NCBI GenBank assembly: GCA_027019885.1
Contig: JALUWC010000190.1
Location: 1 to 12,036 of the forward strand
DNA length: 12,036 nucleotides
Direction: 5' to 3'
From: Geoglobus sp.
Lineage (GTDB): Archaea; Halobacteriota; Archaeoglobi; Archaeoglobales; Archaeoglobaceae
Shown piece after piece: positions 1 to 8,552 of the stretch. Each line of letters starts with the position of its first letter. Positions within the stretch are counted from its first letter, which is position 1. A model generated the notes under the pieces. It did not search any database. It saw only the letters and a list, made by a program, of their open reading frames with translations, and was not told the origin of the DNA. Position numbers and translations under genes: made by a program.

Positions 1-489
1 TGCAAGATGTTCGCTCACAACGAGAGATGTGTCGAGGACAACGGGAATGTCCTCCTCTCTGTTCAGGATGAATCCTGCATGAATGCTGCCCACCTCACCC
101 TTCTTTTTCCTCATCAAGGCCTGCTCTATAACCTCCTTTTCCGCAAGCTTTACCTTCATTCCGGACTTTGGAGGAATTCTGGGATTGACGAAACCCATTA
201 CCTCATCGTGATAGCCAAGAATTGAGGCGGTTAGCTCATACAGATCAAAATCCCTTCTGACTATCCCTATTGCCCTCAGAATTCTTTCAGGCTCGATGTC
301 GGGGTTTGAGAGGTATACATCGGGAAACTGCCTCACAGGCTTTCTTCCTGTTATTCTGCATAGCACTTTCTTCCCATCAAGCTCGTAGTAGACGAACTCT
401 CCAGCTTTGAGCCTCTCATTGTCTGGGGAGATGAACCTGAACTCGTCCTGCCTGTCTGCTGGCCCCTTGACAAGTCCTATGGCATTCAT
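1..489 (-). CDS. herA: HerA DNA translocase, N-terminal part (cut by window edge)
   Basis: The first 163 residues of a HerA-family hexameric ATPase that pumps DNA and works with the NurA nuclease in DNA end resection. The visible part is the N-terminal HAS-barrel domain. It opens with MNAIGLVKGP, has the strand-turn LKAGEFVYYEL near residue 28, and ends with the HerA-typical stretch GSIHAGFILNREEDIPVV followed by LVVSEHLA. In the family the Walker A loop comes directly after this, so the window stops just before the catalytic motif. The ATG at 489-487 shares bases with the TGA of the upstream gene (ATGA overlap). A good Shine-Dalgarno (SD) sequence, AGAGGTGGAT, lies four bases upstream of the start, inside that gene. 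The position at the end of an mre11-rad50-nurA operon supports the call. No ATPase motif is visible in this fragment, so identity rests on the HAS-barrel sequence and context. Confidence 0.88.
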   Translation of the reverse strand, partial: MNAIGLVKGPADRQDEFRFISPDNERLKAGEFVYYELDGKKVLCRITGRKPVRQFPDVYLSNPDIEPERILRAIGIVRRDFDLYELTASILGYHDEVMGFVNPRIPPKSGMKVKLAEKEVIEQALMRKKKGEVGSIHAGFILNREEDIPVVLDTSLVVSEHLA

Positions 490-971
490 ATATCCACCTC
501 TCTCAGCAGACTGTACTCGATCTCAACCAGTATCATTTCAAATATGTCTCTCTGATCTGGAATGAGGTCCATCAATCTTCTGACAGCATTTCTTGCCAGA
601 TCTCTGTCTCTTTTTATCAGAAATGGGAGATAGGGTATTCTGATCTCATTGTTAGATGTGTGAATTTCAACAATCTCGTCATGATCCATCACCCGTATCT
701 CATCCCCAATCCTCACCATCCTCAGAGGCTCGCTTCCATCATTGCTCATCAGGACATAGAACTTCGTGTAGGTTTTCGGCTCATTGAGGTCTGGCATGAA
801 TTTTCTTATCTTTTCAACATCAGCTTTTCCGAGATACTTGGATATCTCGTCCTCCTGCTGGTAAACCTGAGAGCTTATTGAGATGACATCCCCAACCCTG
901 ACAAAGGTTCCTATCTCCATCTCACCCTCCGCCTCAAACTCTCTCACAGAATTAACCCTGACCACCCTCAT
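486..971 (-). CDS. Unrecognised 161-aa protein between nurA and herA
   Basis: I do not recognise this family. It is almost certainly a real gene: its ATG overlaps the nurA stop (ATGA), its TGA overlaps the herA start (ATGA), and AAGGTGAT sits just upstream of its ATG. It has no signal peptide, membrane segment or cysteine. The N-terminal two thirds look rich in beta strands and contain two similar turns, VRVGDVISI (residues 24-32) and VRIGDEIRV (86-94), of the kind seen in small barrel folds. Residues about 40-60 and 121-157 look helical and highly charged. A small barrel (OB, SH3 or HAS-like) is possible, since HerA itself begins with a HAS barrel, but I see no convincing alignment to HerA. 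Its position predicts a role with NurA/HerA, such as an adaptor or regulator; this is inference from context only. It does not look like a detached NurA C-terminus, because NurA upstream already carries its C-terminal motif. Confidence 0.85.
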   Translation of the reverse strand: MRVVRVNSVREFEAEGEMEIGTFVRVGDVISISSQVYQQEDEISKYLGKADVEKIRKFMPDLNEPKTYTKFYVLMSNDGSEPLRMVRIGDEIRVMDHDEIVEIHTSNNEIRIPYLPFLIKRDRDLARNAVRRLMDLIPDQRDIFEMILVEIEYSLLREVDI

Positions 972-1825
972 TCGATCACCTTGCTGACAAATTTAAATGA
1001 TATTCCCATGCTTTTTACAGCCCTGAGAAATGCGTTCTTCTCCCTCTCGCTTATTCTGGCATTGGCATGGGCTCTTTCGAGTATGTACGGATAGGCATTT
1101 GTTGATCCAAGCTTTGATTCAGCGTAAACAACCTCAATTATCTCATCCAGCATGCTTTCACACCACTCAGGAATTTCTATTCTTGCAGGCAAAAGCGGGC
1201 TTAATTTGAAGTACACTGCCTTCAATGGAGTGTTTGTGCCTATGGGGTGAGTGTATTCATAAATCTCAAGGTAATCTGAGAGAAGCATTGAGTCATATAT
1301 GCTGAACCTCAGATCCCTTGTAAAGCTCCTGTCAACATACCCTATGACTGGAGTTTCAAGTCTTTCAGACTCGTTTATAAGGCTTTCAATCTCTCTCTGA
1401 TAGGCTTTTCTCAGAGCCTCACTCAATTCGGTTGTGTAGAGTGCCCTCAGACTCCCATCAAAAAAGGCAAAGTCAGCTTTAGCCATGCTGTCCTTCATCA
1501 CCTCAACCTCAAGCCTGAACCTCTCAAATTCAAGGTTTGTGTCGGAGACTATCTTGCTTTTATGGAAGACCTCAAACTCTCCCCTGCCGTGATGCACAAC
1601 TATTCCTGCAGACTGCACTCCACCAAACGGTATTCCAAAATCTCTCATAGGTGGAAGCTGACTGCCATCAACCCCCAGAACCGCCAGATCATCGAGAATC
1701 TGATATTCGTTCAGCCTTCTGATTTTTCTCTTTTCAATCTTGACCTCAAATTCCTGAGACTGAATTTCCCTTATTCTTTCCACAAACCTGTCTATGTTCT
1801 CAAAAAGCCGTCCATCAAGGCTCAT
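968..1825 (-). CDS. nurA: NurA 5'-3' nuclease
   Basis: NurA is a metal-dependent nuclease with an RNase H-like fold. As a dimer docked on the HerA hexamer it degrades DNA strands during break processing. Three family motifs are visible: GVDGSQ at 51-56 (catalytic Asp53), FFDGSL at 121-126 (Asp123), and the C-terminal YPYILERAHANA at 245-256 with His253. GYVDRS at 162-167 fits the middle motif. At 285 residues it is at the short end for the family; some archaeal members exceed 400, so the variable middle and end regions are reduced here. The ATG at 1825 overlaps the rad50 stop (ATGA) and the TGA overlaps the next start in the same way, so translation is probably coupled on both sides. The stretch just before the start (GGGGTAAGTGTGGT) is only a weak SD, which fits reinitiation after rad50. 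Confidence 0.9.
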   Translation of the reverse strand: MSLDGRLFENIDRFVERIREIQSQEFEVKIEKRKIRRLNEYQILDDLAVLGVDGSQLPPMRDFGIPFGGVQSAGIVVHHGRGEFEVFHKSKIVSDTNLEFERFRLEVEVMKDSMAKADFAFFDGSLRALYTTELSEALRKAYQREIESLINESERLETPVIGYVDRSFTRDLRFSIYDSMLLSDYLEIYEYTHPIGTNTPLKAVYFKLSPLLPARIEIPEWCESMLDEIIEVVYAESKLGSTNAYPYILERAHANARISEREKNAFLRAVKSMGISFKFVSKVIE

Positions 1826-4479
1826 ACCACACTTACCCCGTTCTCCTTTCTAACTCTGATTGCATTCTCGACCATCTCCTCAAAAGTGTCATCGTGGCTT
1901 ATGACAAAAATCTGCCTGAAGTCCTTTATTTTTGATATCTGCTGGGCAAAGTTTCTCCTTCTCTCAGCATCCATGTTCTGGGTTGGCTCATCAAAGAATA
2001 TTATTGGCAGGGATGACAGAAACTTCAGCAGAGCAAGCCTGACAGCCAAAGCAGAGACCATCTGCTCCCCACCGCTCATCTGCCTGAAGTCAATCTCTCT
2101 TCCCATGTACTTTGCCCTTATCCCAAAATCCTCAGAAAGCTCTAACTGCCAGGAGTAGTCATCCATTATTTCGCAGAAAATCCTGTTTGCCTCAGCTGAA
2201 ATTATCTCCGCATAAACTCTCGTCAGCTCAGGAACTGCTTTTCTGAAGAGATCTCTGAGATCTTTGAGAAATTCAAGCTTTTTCTCAAGATTTTTAATCT
2301 CGTCTCTCATACTGCTCAGCTTCTCTTTTTCACTCTCCATCTCAGAGATCTCTGTTTCCAGCCTGGATATTTCCCTCATTAATGCACCAATCTCACCAGA
2401 AATGCTGCTTACCATTGAAAAGAGCTCTTCTCTAAGCCTTTCAACCTCCTCATGCTCCTTTTCACTGTATTTCACCGAAAGCTCATTAAGAGCTGTTTCA
2501 ATCTGCCTCATTTTTCCAGCTGTTTCCTGAATCTCGCCCTCAAGCTCTCTGATTTTGCCTTCAACCTCCCCTTTTTTACCTGTCTTTTCAGAGAGTCTCA
2601 CATACTTTTCATAGTCCGACCTTAAGCGATGCATCTCCCTTTCAATCTGAGCTTTCCCTGTTTTCAGTTTTTCGTATTCCTGAACAAATTCTTCAGAACC
2701 ATCAAGCTCCTTTCTGATTTCCTCCAGTCTCGAAGTGATTTCTTTGTAATCCCTTGTGTATCTCCTGAGATCATCCGTTTTTCCTGCAACAACGGCAAAT
2801 CTTTCCTCGCTTCCTTCAACAGATTCAAGTTCATTTTCAAGCTTCAGTTTTTCCTCTTCAAGATTTTCAATCCTCCCAAGCCTCTTCCTCAGCTCATCAA
2901 GCTTTCTCCTTCTCTCACCAATTTCTTTCTCAAGCAATGGAAGCCTTTCTGCCTCCATGGCAAGTGACGAAATCTTTTTCTCTATATCCTGCCTGGCTAT
3001 ATCCATCTTTTCCAGCATTTCGAGCTTACTTCTCAGATTCTCGAGCTTTTCAGACATTTCTGCTATTTCAGAGTCATATTTCTCCTTTCTGTCGGCTATT
3101 CTGTCACATGGCTCGCCGAGAATGGGGCATGTTGTCTCCTCAACTGACCTTCTCATGGATTTCAAATCCTTGATTTTCTGCTCAATTCTCGATATTATCT
3201 CTATTGCCCTCTTTCTCTTTTCATCCACACCCTCAAGCCTTTCAAGCTTTTTTCTGAGCTTCTCAAGCTCCTGCCTTGCAGAGTTTGCAGAGTGAACTTC
3301 ACTTTCAAATGCTTCTATCTCTCTTTCAAGTCTTTTGATAAATTCTTCAAGAGTTTTTTTCTCTCCCAGGGCTTCATTAATTGTGTTTATCCTCTCTTTC
3401 ACCTTTTTCTCTTTCTCAGCCTTTATCCTTAGCTCTTCGTAGCCGGCAACCTCTTTTTTCAGCTCCGAAATTTCCTTTTTCAGAAAAAGAAGCTTTTCCT
3501 TCAGTAAATCATGATCTCTCTTTTTCTCATTAATTGCATTAACAATTCTCTCAAGCTCTTCAAGCCTTTCTCCAAGCACCTCTATCTCCTTTTGAAGTTT
3601 CAGGTATCTGCTGTATCCCTCCTTTAGACTGAACATCATCTTTTCAGCTTTTTCAATTTCCAATCTCTCGTTTAAAAGTTCTCTGAGCCTCCTATCAAGC
3701 ATGCCCCTTTTGCTTTCAAGCAACTCCCTCTCTTTTTTAAGATCTGAAACTCTTTCCTTGATTCTGCTCAGGAGCTCACATCTCTTTTTAACTTCATCAA
3801 GTCTTGCCTCAACTTCTTTCTTCCTTTTTTTGAGATCACTCACTCTCTTCCTCTTTTCTGATAGCTCCTTTGCCATTCTTTCAAATCCCTTTATCCTTTC
3901 CTCTACTTTGGATATCTCAATTCGAATCTCATTTATTCTATCCTCAAGCAAATTCTGGTACTCTCTGCTTCTCTCAAATGCCCTGTCATACCTTTCTATC
4001 CCAAGAAGAGGTGAGAATACAGATTTTCTTGAGCTTGGAGGTAAGAGAAAGTGGGCCGTGATGTTTCCCTGATCTACGCCAACAGCATTCTCGAATATGA
4101 CTTCAGGATTTATCTCAAGCCCAAAGTGCTCTGTTATCCATGACTCCACATCTCTAACTCCTTCAGCAATTCTGCCAAGTTCCTCGTCCTCAACAAAGTA
4201 TTCGGAGGTTTTACCGCCTTGTATTTTTCTGACAACCCTGTAAACTCTGCCATCAGCAGGACTTTCAATTCTGATCCTTATCTCAGCCCTGCTCTCCCCT
4301 CTCCTGACGAAATCAGATATGTTGTAGGGTAGATGATTGAAAAGGCAGAAGCCTATTGCCTCAAGAATCGTTGTTTTTCCTGCTCCATTCTCGCCTATGA
4401 TTCCATTGAGTCCCCTTGTAAACTCAATTCTTTGTGCCCTGTAGCTCTTTATGTTTTCCAGATACACCTCAAGAATCAT
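1822..4479 (-). CDS. rad50: Rad50 double-strand-break repair ATPase
   Basis: This 885-residue ABC/SMC-type ATPase pairs with Mre11 to tether, open and trim DNA ends. The two halves of the ATPase head flank a long coiled coil. The N-terminal lobe carries Walker A (GENGAGKTT, 29-37) and the Q-loop Gln137. Residues about 165-445 and 465-745 are heptad-like and rich in Lys, Glu, Leu and Arg. The C-terminal lobe has the signature MSGGEQ (801-806), Walker B IIFFDEP (826-832), the D-loop NMD (835-837) and the H-loop His862. The turn at the coiled-coil apex is unusual: CPILGEPC at 451-458 places the two cysteines in a CX6C rather than the CXXC of standard zinc hooks. The frame is intact on both sides, so this is not a frameshift. 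The start overlaps the 3' end of mre11 by 11 nt and is preceded by a very strong SD. Length is normal for archaeal Rad50. Confidence 0.97.
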   Translation of the reverse strand: MILEVYLENIKSYRAQRIEFTRGLNGIIGENGAGKTTILEAIGFCLFNHLPYNISDFVRRGESRAEIRIRIESPADGRVYRVVRKIQGGKTSEYFVEDEELGRIAEGVRDVESWITEHFGLEINPEVIFENAVGVDQGNITAHFLLPPSSRKSVFSPLLGIERYDRAFERSREYQNLLEDRINEIRIEISKVEERIKGFERMAKELSEKRKRVSDLKKRKKEVEARLDEVKKRCELLSRIKERVSDLKKERELLESKRGMLDRRLRELLNERLEIEKAEKMMFSLKEGYSRYLKLQKEIEVLGERLEELERIVNAINEKKRDHDLLKEKLLFLKKEISELKKEVAGYEELRIKAEKEKKVKERINTINEALGEKKTLEEFIKRLEREIEAFESEVHSANSARQELEKLRKKLERLEGVDEKRKRAIEIISRIEQKIKDLKSMRRSVEETTCPILGEPCDRIADRKEKYDSEIAEMSEKLENLRSKLEMLEKMDIARQDIEKKISSLAMEAERLPLLEKEIGERRRKLDELRKRLGRIENLEEEKLKLENELESVEGSEERFAVVAGKTDDLRRYTRDYKEITSRLEEIRKELDGSEEFVQEYEKLKTGKAQIEREMHRLRSDYEKYVRLSEKTGKKGEVEGKIRELEGEIQETAGKMRQIETALNELSVKYSEKEHEEVERLREELFSMVSSISGEIGALMREISRLETEISEMESEKEKLSSMRDEIKNLEKKLEFLKDLRDLFRKAVPELTRVYAEIISAEANRIFCEIMDDYSWQLELSEDFGIRAKYMGREIDFRQMSGGEQMVSALAVRLALLKFLSSLPIIFFDEPTQNMDAERRRNFAQQISKIKDFRQIFVISHDDTFEEMVENAIRVRKENGVSVV

Positions 4480-5728
4480 TTACCTCCCACCACCTCCACT
4501 CCTCCTCACCCTCCCGATTTTCATCTCTTCCGGCATGCCCTTCATCCCTGAACTCATTTTTTATCTCAGTTACAGCTTCTTTCATCTTCTCCGAGATTAT
4601 ATCTGAAATGAGTTCATCAGCATCCTCCATCTTTCCCAAGGAAAATAGCTCCCTTAATCTCAGAATCTCCTCACTTATATCCTCGTATCCCATCCCCCTC
4701 AGGATTGAAGAGATGACATTCCTTTCAACCTTGATCCTGTCTGAAAGATCCACATTCACAGCCTGAAGAACCCCTGAGCTGTAATTCACCTCAATTCTCA
4801 GCACCAGGGGATCAAATATCTCCCTTGCAAGCTTTTCAACCTTCTCCCTGTCGATGTTCTTTTCAGTGCTGATTCTCACATGAACGACCTCTCCTGCATT
4901 TCCTCTCTGTTTCAGAAATTCATCCCTGAGCTTCGAATAATCTGAAAAGTTCGCATCAACAATTCTGAAAGCTCTGGGGGTGTAAAATGAGCTTTCATGG
5001 GAATATTTTATCTCCTCATCAAGCTCAACAATAAAAATCCCCTTTTTGAATGAGTACTCTCTCAGATCGCAGCTCTCAAGGCTTCCCGGATTGAATATGA
5101 AATCGTCCTCAACGTACATTTTATGAATGTGCCCGAGAGCAACATAATCAATCCGATCCCTGAAACGGTAAAGATGGGATGAGCTTATGCAGCCGTACAT
5201 GTCAATGTATCCTTCTATTCCAAAATGAGACATGAAAACTGTTTTGTTCTCGTTTTCAATCTCTCCAAGGAAGTCCTGAATTATTCGCTCCGTAAGCATT
5301 CCGTAGTATTTCAGCCCGTAAATTCTTGCATTGCCAGTGTCATAGTAAGAGCCCGCCTTCCCATCCCACTCCTCCACAACAGGCTTTCCATCCTCAAAGT
5401 GGGGTTTCAGATTTATCAGATAACCCTGACTGCTGAGATAGTCTATCCAGGTGTATCTCTCTCTGAAATAGGTTGAGTCGTGGTTACCCTCAACCGCAAT
5501 CACAGGGATATCACACCTCTCCAGAACGAGGACAGCCTGGGCAAGGGTTACTGGATCCATTTCGCTTTTTTTGTGAAACAGATCCCCCGCAACAAGTATG
5601 AAGTCAACATCTTTGGAGACTGAAAATTCAACAGCCTTCTTGAAAGCTTGGGCAAAATCTACTGCCCTCTCTTCACTTCCATACTGTCTGTAACCCAGAT
5701 GGACATCTGCAAGATGAGCAAATCTCAC
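4469..5728 (-). CDS. mre11: Mre11 double-strand-break repair nuclease
   Basis: Manganese-dependent 3'-5' exonuclease and endonuclease that forms the core of the Mre11-Rad50 complex. The 419-residue protein shows all five phosphoesterase motifs: ADVHLG (Asp8, His10), AGDLFH (Asp49), GNHD (81-84), MSHFG (His168) and GHIH (199-202). A capping domain occupies about 235-325, and the acidic, helical C-terminal region (about 335-419) contains the expected Rad50-binding segment. The final residues EEEWRWWEVNDS are Trp-rich because the DNA there is also the rad50 ribosome-binding site. The start is GTG at 5728, giving MRFAHLADVHLG, where the Asp/His positions match the family. No SD precedes it, but a TATA-like element lies about 24 bases upstream, so the transcript is probably leaderless. 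It is the first gene of the repair operon, 73 bp after rpsB. Confidence 0.96.
   Translation of the reverse strand: MRFAHLADVHLGYRQYGSEERAVDFAQAFKKAVEFSVSKDVDFILVAGDLFHKKSEMDPVTLAQAVLVLERCDIPVIAVEGNHDSTYFRERYTWIDYLSSQGYLINLKPHFEDGKPVVEEWDGKAGSYYDTGNARIYGLKYYGMLTERIIQDFLGEIENENKTVFMSHFGIEGYIDMYGCISSSHLYRFRDRIDYVALGHIHKMYVEDDFIFNPGSLESCDLREYSFKKGIFIVELDEEIKYSHESSFYTPRAFRIVDANFSDYSKLRDEFLKQRGNAGEVVHVRISTEKNIDREKVEKLAREIFDPLVLRIEVNYSSGVLQAVNVDLSDRIKVERNVISSILRGMGYEDISEEILRLRELFSLGKMEDADELISDIISEKMKEAVTEIKNEFRDEGHAGRDENREGEEEWRWWEVNDS
4480..4497 (-). promoter_or_regulatory. Double Shine-Dalgarno for rad50 inside mre11
   Basis: On the minus strand this reads GGAGGTGGTGGGAGGTAA just before the rad50 ATG, giving two GGAGGT cores in tandem, 12 and 2 bases from the ATG. 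It lies within the last codons of mre11, where it encodes Trp-Arg-Trp-Trp-Glu-Val. This favours the 4479 start for rad50 and suggests strong de novo initiation or reinitiation, in contrast to the weaker site before nurA. Confidence 0.8.
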
Positions 5729-7880: not shown

Positions 7881-7886
7881 TTTCAG

Positions 7887-7960
7887 TGGGGCCGCCGAGA
7901 TTTGAACTCGGGTCACGGCGTCCCGAACGCCGCAGGATAACCAGGCTACCCCACGGCCCC
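7887..7960 (-). tRNA. tRNA-Pro (anticodon CGG)
   Basis: Folded by eye. The acceptor arm GGGGCCG pairs with CGGCCCC over seven base pairs, with discriminator A at 7887. The D arm has A14, G15 and the GG pair in its loop, but its stem is weak (one G-T pair and a T-T mismatch at 13-22). The anticodon stem CGGCG/CGCCG is perfect, with loop TTCGGGA and anticodon CGG at 7925-7923, reading CCG codons. The variable loop is TGAC. The T arm CCGAG/CTCGG encloses TTCAAAT. CCA is not encoded. No intron is present. The gene lies between rpoN and rpoK, and its first 15 bases are also the last four sense codons and the stop of rpoN. Confidence 0.95.
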
Positions 7961-8146
7961 ATGGTACTGAGCAAACTCCTTAAGCACAGACTTGTAAGTC
8001 AGAAACATCCTTCTGCAGCAGTACCTGTTTACTCCAATCTCGTCGAGGGCTTCCTTGGGAGGTTTGCCTGAATCGATCAACTGCTTATAGTCCTCGTATT
8101 TGTGGGCTATAACAGCACCGCACGTAAAGCATCTTACCGGAAACAT
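7946..8146 (-). CDS. rpoN: RNA polymerase subunit N (Rpb10 homologue)
   Basis: Small zinc-binding subunit of archaeal RNA polymerase, equivalent to eukaryotic Rpb10, needed for assembly with subunits D, L and P. The 66 residues begin MFPVRCFTCG and carry the full atypical zinc site CX2C...CC (Cys6, Cys9, Cys43, Cys44) within RYCCRRM. I reject the longer frame from 8197 because the family starts at MFPVRCFTCG and AGGTGA precedes the ATG at 8146. That SD is formed by the last Arg codon and TGA of rpsI. The tail is odd: the last codons (Gly-Ala-Val-Gly) and TAG are the 5' end of tRNA-Pro. The tRNA begins exactly at a codon boundary, after Tyr61-His62, so RNase P cleavage would leave an rpoN message without a stop codon. 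Confidence 0.95.
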   Translation of the reverse strand: MFPVRCFTCGAVIAHKYEDYKQLIDSGKPPKEALDEIGVNRYCCRRMFLTYKSVLKEFAQYHGAVG

Positions 8147-8153
8147 GAAAAAT

Positions 8154-8552
8154 TCACCTGTATGAGGTTTGTCTCCTCTTCCTAGCTCCTCTGCCACCCT
8201 GTTTCTTTGCCTCCTTCCTCCTCACATCATTGACAAGGAGCGTTCTGTCATACTCCAAGAATACTCTCTTCAACTCAGGGTCCCCAGAATACTCAAGCAG
8301 AGCTCTTGCAATTGCCGTTCTCGCTGCCTCAGCCTGTCCCATCACTCCTCCGCCCTCCACCTTGACATCGATGTCAACCTGATTTGAGAGGTCTTTTGCG
8401 ATCATGAGGGGCTCCATTATCTTGAGCCTTATCATTTCAGGCTGAACAATCTCAACAGGAACCTTGTTTATTCTTATTCTGCCTTTTCCGGGCCTTGCAG
8501 TTGCCCTTGCAAGTGCTGTCTTTCTCTTACCGCTTGTCACAATAACCTTCAT
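8154..8552 (-). CDS. rpsI: 30S ribosomal protein S9 (uS9)
   Basis: uS9 sits in the head of the small subunit, and its C-terminal tail reaches the P-site tRNA. The 132 residues show [13 protein letters not shown] at 7-19, the central [48 protein letters not shown], and the basic tail [14 protein letters not shown], which ends in the conserved Arg that contacts tRNA. The ATG at 8552 overlaps the rplM TGA by 4 nt (ATGA), and GAGGTGAT lies three bases before it. Its final AGG-TGA doubles as the SD of rpoN, seven bases downstream. Length and motifs are normal for archaea. Confidence 0.97.

Follow-up and report, generated by a model that had tools for sequence, protein, structure and literature searches.

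What does a 161-codon gene do when it is translated from between nurA and herA? We encountered this question at one end of a 12,036-nt stretch of Geoglobus sp. DNA (contig JALUWC010000190.1; hereafter the window), in which the gene, here called X161, occupies 486..971 on the minus strand and starts with ATG. Our preferred answer, to which we assign a probability of about 55%, is that X161 belongs to the HerA-NurA DNA-end-resection machine as its third subunit and consists of a HAS barrel freed from the ATPase. An initial annotation made from the DNA alone had described the open reading frame (ORF) correctly: X161 shares 4-nt ATGA overlaps with the nurA stop (968..971, TCAT on the plus strand) and with the herA start (486..489, again TCAT on the plus strand), has its own Shine-Dalgarno-like sequence, AGGTGATC (974..981, minus), upstream of the ATG, and lies between genes that Pfam supports as encoding NurA and the N-terminus of HerA. 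The same annotation called the gene unrecognised. This is right with respect to families, for no match at E ≤ 1 was obtained in Pfam or NCBIfam, no RecA-like ATPase domain was detected in the 161 aa and a sequence search of PDB returned nothing notable (best E 0.38), but the gene had already been annotated in Geoglobus ahangari as 'hypothetical protein GAH_00977'.

The AlphaFold2 model of X161 places a HAS-type beta barrel in residues 1-95 (687..971, minus), with strands at 2-8, 11-15, 23-26, 29-39, 66-76 and 91-94. An acidic loop and helices are inserted between barrel strands at residues 39-63 (783..857, minus), and a helical C-terminus (residues 97-159; 495..683, minus) is found in place of HerA's ATPase. 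The best fold match of this model in Foldseek and VIA was the HAS domain of HerA, as it was for a model of DUF8166, although the fold searches hardly covered the end of the helical C-terminus, and for the last helices the VIA result extends only to the folds that it lists. Neither the profile nor the fold searches gave a clear match to a characterised family unrelated to DNA processing. The small beta barrel and the helical C-terminus that had been guessed from the DNA are therefore borne out by the model, and the suggested kinship of the barrel with the HerA HAS domain is upheld by the two models and by profile-profile comparison. The initial annotation had also offered an internal duplication on the strength of two similar turns, VRVGDVISI (24-32) and VRIGDEIRV (86-94). 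Both motifs are present at those positions, but the duplication was rejected because the two VR.GD turns belong to a single HAS-type barrel; of the two turn glycines only G89 is invariant in 25 sequences.

Profile comparison with hhalign gave 90.6% for the X161 family against the HerA N-terminus, compared to 0.1-0.7% for shuffled controls, while smaller alignments gave just 19.7% and 14.2%. Searches with hidden Markov models (HMMs) did not separate HerA from decoys, and the single X161 HMM match to a HerA (L092, E 2e-3) is unreliable since such hits were mixed with decoys. Pfam's HAS-barrel model PF09378 did not match X161 at E ≤ 1 and found two of its relatives only below the cut-off (L024, E 0.34; P0014, E 0.64). 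X161 thus resembles the HAS barrels of SsoHerA (4d2i), TkHerA (9x1m) and DrHerA (7wrw) in its predicted barrel, its insert and a collinear profile match, but differs from HerA in having a helical C-terminus instead of an ATPase domain and in going unrecognised by PF09378. The match to the N-terminal barrel of F1/V1 ATPases was shorter, and there is no ATP synthase context. On its predicted structure X161 is a HAS-type barrel freed from the ATPase, and this fold is well supported computationally.

X161 is a real, conserved gene under purifying selection. A chance ORF was dismissed because X161 occurs in 25 of 60 genomes by protein search (its own genome counted) and the ratio of nonsynonymous to synonymous substitution rates (dN/dS) was 0.019-0.261 over 7 pairs; in the accompanying comparison no dS value was obtained for one pair of NurA and one of HerA. 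Eight residues (M1, G21, P60, D61, G89, H104, Y114 and L133) are invariant in the 25 aligned copies. Protein length within the window's own family is 154-174 aa, and the copies are acidic (isoelectric point 4.6-5.7). These data bear on the idea that X161 is a relic, a HerA N-terminus that broke off and is carried passively. A HAS-type barrel without an ATPase next to herA is what a relic would look like, but the low dN/dS, the relatives in 43 of 294 genomes of the phylum and a conserved C-terminal part of its own, in which H104, Y114 and L133 are invariant together with G89 in 25 of 25 copies, contradict the idea and leave it highly improbable.

X161 is also related to DUF8166 (PF26500). A search from the 25 copies returned 18 proteins, of which 13 had no Pfam tag and 5 distant ones were tagged PF26500. 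Starting from those five and L023 we obtained 586 matches, and among the 120 listed the names were mostly Chloroflexota with one 'DUF8166 domain-containing' entry. Copies from outside the window's family yielded 196 matches, and all 120 listed were tagged PF26500. The A8 profile, built from DUF8166-type copies with no rows from the window's family, matched the window locus significantly (E 3.7e-13), 24 genomes of that family, its own counted (E 3.6e-7 to 4.5e-17), and 41 of the 294 phylum genomes in all; the A5 profile, which includes the window copy, matched 43 of 294. The models of X161 and DUF8166 have the same fold with the same order of strands and helices, and in haloarchaea DUF8166 takes the same operon slot. 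Tagged proteins among the matches listed, which include those of Natronobacterium gregoryi and Halococcoides cellulosivorans, are longer (175-262 aa) than X161-family copies. Because the 13 closest proteins (P0001-P0013) carry no Pfam tag, and so by the precomputed tag fall outside Pfam's own PF26500 cut-off, we file X161 as a divergent relative of DUF8166 and not as a member. The sole bacterial context seen, in a Cloacimonadota genome (G297), does not adjoin nurA: the DUF8166 gene lies beside ExbB/ExbD, PGI and PepSY, and nurA is on another contig beside a Rad50-like gene. With the bacterial profile no match in IMG/VR was confirmed, no viral fold match was obtained at E ≤ 0.001, and a literature search on DUF8166 found no paper.

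The gene order around X161 homologs, hereafter X, was examined in 45 genomes, 43 found with the A5 profile and two (G030, G039) by protein search. The order mre11-rad50-nurA-X-herA was unbroken in 22 of the 45, comprising 10 Archaeoglobi (among them the window, whose herA is cut) and 12 others (G047, G048, G055, G057, G065, G066, G102, G124, G255, G268, G282 and G296); in G055 and G066 the order was taken partly from profile coordinates as the ORF caller chose antisense frames. A further six were seen in part and agree with this order (G002, G003, G005, G035, G039, G150), and in two nurA and X are 1-2 kb apart (G056, G074). In six genomes nurA-X was kept with herA elsewhere (G010, G011, G014, G021, G022, G024), in five nurA lay upstream of X with the other side cut or outside the survey (G030, G231, G262, G285, G289), and in four, all of one genus, X and nurA were on separate contigs (G013, G023, G032, G161). 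All 43 A5-positive genomes have nurA, 37 of them on the same strand and less than 400 nt upstream between profile matches; across the phylum nurA is present in 190 of the 294 genomes. X is the fifth member of one type of archaeal break-repair operon, and this linkage is well supported computationally. The initial annotation knew of no fixed fifth member of the archaeal cluster, a view that has to be amended for this operon type; absence of the gene from the loci of relatives, which would have counted against its proposal, is not what was found. The recurrence of X between repair genes in diverse members of one phylum suggests that the machinery for processing DNA ends has an additional component. 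The possibility that X stands in for a part missing from short NurA proteins was rejected as a general rule because X-associated NurA ranges from 284 to 421 aa (ORF caller).

X is co-inherited with one HerA-NurA lineage. Ten X-negative genomes of the window's family (G009, G012, G015, G017, G020, G025, G027, G029, G033 and G034; others such as G139, G148 and G180 are outside this count) have a different arrangement, herA-mre11-rad50-nurA in eight and mre11-rad50-nurA with herA elsewhere in two. X was missing beside a contig end in G004, G026 and G036, neither nurA nor X was found in G031, and G007 lacks X and carries a distant HerA. A HerA tree comprised 52 rows, with one short row left out; rows were labelled by locus, and the second loci of G000 and G020 counted as X-negative. 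In this tree nine of ten X-negative rows fell on one side of a branch with a Shimodaira-Hasegawa-like approximate likelihood ratio (SH-aLRT) support of 99, and the tenth, G007, had a very long branch. X-positive labels required 5 changes (mean of 11.7 after shuffling) and X-negative labels 2 (9.3), and none of 500 shuffles was as low. Since relatedness alone clusters such labels, this speaks for co-inheritance and not for interaction. Two loci, L098 (G000, contig C562) and L099 (G020), are further nurA-herA-mre11-rad50 sets in a third arrangement; L098 may belong to another organism because G000 is given as 8.75% contaminated. As a side observation, Pfam NurA matched Haloferax volcanii among the control genomes, and excerpts of a review list HerA and NurA as absent from that species (PMC7776575).

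How X161 might work is suggested by the HerA-NurA complex, in which six HerA bind two NurA and the genes of both subunits flank X161. Excerpts of two reports describe two protein species in this complex (PMC12977600, PMC9960219), to which X161 would add a third. In T. kodakarensis all HAS alpha1 helices and the loops preceding them take part in NurA contacts, as excerpted from PMC12977600, and in D. radiodurans the acidic HerA residues D78, E80 and D81, which face basic NurA motifs across the mapped interface, were targets of mutation, as excerpted from PMC9960219. The profile alignment lays residues 39-63 of X161 over the HerA loop and helix that contact NurA, and on this basis we propose that X161 docks on the NurA dimer through its inserted loop and helix. 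Contact with NurA is our best guess. The helical C-terminus would add a contact absent from HerA, and X161 would act between nuclease and motor as an adaptor, assembly factor or gate; being translated between nurA and herA, it would reach nascent NurA ahead of HerA.

Several observations weigh against this reading. The insert is modelled with less confidence than any other internal stretch (block predicted local distance difference test scores of 61-77 for residues 41-70), its conservation of 2.75 bits is exceeded by two of the ten segments (range 1.89-3.31), although by just one of ten in the bacterial set, where it reaches 3.43, and its acidity is common to the whole protein. Evolutionary rates were compared by mirror-tree at 23 operon loci, using partial correlations on distances with permutation p values. 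Beyond Mre11 and Rad50, the NurA-HerA correlation was 0.41 (p 5e-4) but X-NurA was 0.06 (p 0.24) and X-HerA 0.05 (p 0.31). Our confidence in a third subunit is lowered because the test detects the known NurA-HerA pair and not X.

X did give a small, unexplained signal with Rad50 after removing Mre11, NurA and HerA (0.28, permutation p 5e-4, 23 loci). It could mean that X161 serves another operon partner or DNA itself, for example by linking Mre11-Rad50 to HerA-NurA, and excerpts of PMC12839542 place HAS-like barrels among DNA-binding small barrels. However, seven partial correlations were computed, of which this is one, and the underlying distances may be saturated. The protein is acidic (isoelectric point as above), and five genomes with flanks (G010, G011, G021, G022, G024) keep nurA-X without an adjoining mre11-rad50 pair, although in G024 the opposite strand encodes a 248-aa ATPase that matches Rad50 more weakly. 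We consider this alternative improbable. Hardly better placed, and still unlikely, is membership of X161 in the HerA ring itself. The HAS barrel of X161 would then pack beside those of HerA and, serving as a cap or spacer, would either set the number of ring subunits (6 or 7) or disrupt the six-fold symmetry beneath the two-fold NurA. The homology of the two barrels fits such a role, as do the association of X with a HerA lineage, two genomes in which X still adjoins herA with nurA set apart, and excerpts of PMC5715905 in which HerA alone is mainly heptameric and shifts to hexamers with nucleotide. It accords poorly with the six genomes that hold nurA-X together and herA elsewhere, the lack of an ATPase domain in X and the insignificant X-HerA rate correlation. 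We consider an adaptor or guard on NurA likelier than a permanent ring subunit.

X was also found outside chromosomes. A tblastn search of 72,556 plasmid records with a haloarchaeal X copy hit four, three of which (Natrinema zhouii, archaeon DL31 and Halobaculum) have the order metallophosphoesterase-SMC-NurA-X-ATPase; the fourth is truncated where its record begins. On the Natrinema zhouii and archaeon DL31 plasmids, mre11 is immediately preceded, at a distance of 206 nt and on the same strand, by SngA-SngB-SngC of the Shango defence system (PADLOC E of 1.7e-89 and 6.9e-88 for SngA, 2.5e-170 and 2.8e-172 for SngB, 1.5e-272 and 9.2e-270 for SngC). In 24 X-positive genomes searched, SngC scored at most 333 bits, compared to 895-905 on the plasmids. 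For chromosomal copies in haloarchaea-like genomes, seven regions were fetched, and ten proteins encoded upstream of six copies were scanned. Three of the six had defence-type matches within about 10 kb upstream: TmtA and a NERD/UvrD helicase (G268), a type II methylase (G255) and a GmrSD-like protein (G282). The scan gives no estimate of frequency because the ten proteins were picked by size and composition. A speculative extension, which we regard as doubtful, is that X161 and DUF8166 are a HAS-only licence, a decoy of the docking barrel that sits on the HerA-binding face of NurA and blocks the nuclease, or meters its activity, until a HerA ring loaded on DNA takes its place. The five-gene module would then travel as a unit, serving in Archaeoglobi as a housekeeping operon for break repair and in some haloarchaea as a plasmid or defence-island module that degrades foreign DNA.

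The interdependence of HerA and NurA for nuclease activity is still unclear according to excerpts of a 2026 paper (PMC12977600). A free HAS-type barrel encoded between nurA and herA is a ready candidate regulator for a machine treated as two-protein, and it would offer a testable role for DUF8166, which has several hundred archaeal and bacterial relatives (the 586 and 196 matches above). It also implies that archaeal break-repair operons split into lineages with different parts lists. Our literature search, whose scope excluded the classical herA-cluster and HAS-barrel papers, noticed no paper naming a third HerA-NurA gene.

The remaining genes of the operon are all on the minus strand. Upstream of X161 are mre11 (4469..5728; Metallophos E 3.2e-18), rad50 (1822..4479; AAA/SMC matches) and a short-form nurA of 285 aa (968..1825; Pfam NurA E 5.2e-16). 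Downstream, the first 163 codons of herA (1..489; Pfam HAS-barrel E 1.6e-4, under Pfam's cut-off) run to the contig end, preceded by a Shine-Dalgarno-like GAGGTGG (494..500, minus). Both AGGTGATC and GAGGTGG resemble what we take to be the complement of the archaeal 16S tail. Elsewhere in the window, a tRNA-Pro (CGG) gene at 7886-7960 (minus) shares 15 nt with the 3' end of an ORF at 7946-8197, presumably rpoN.
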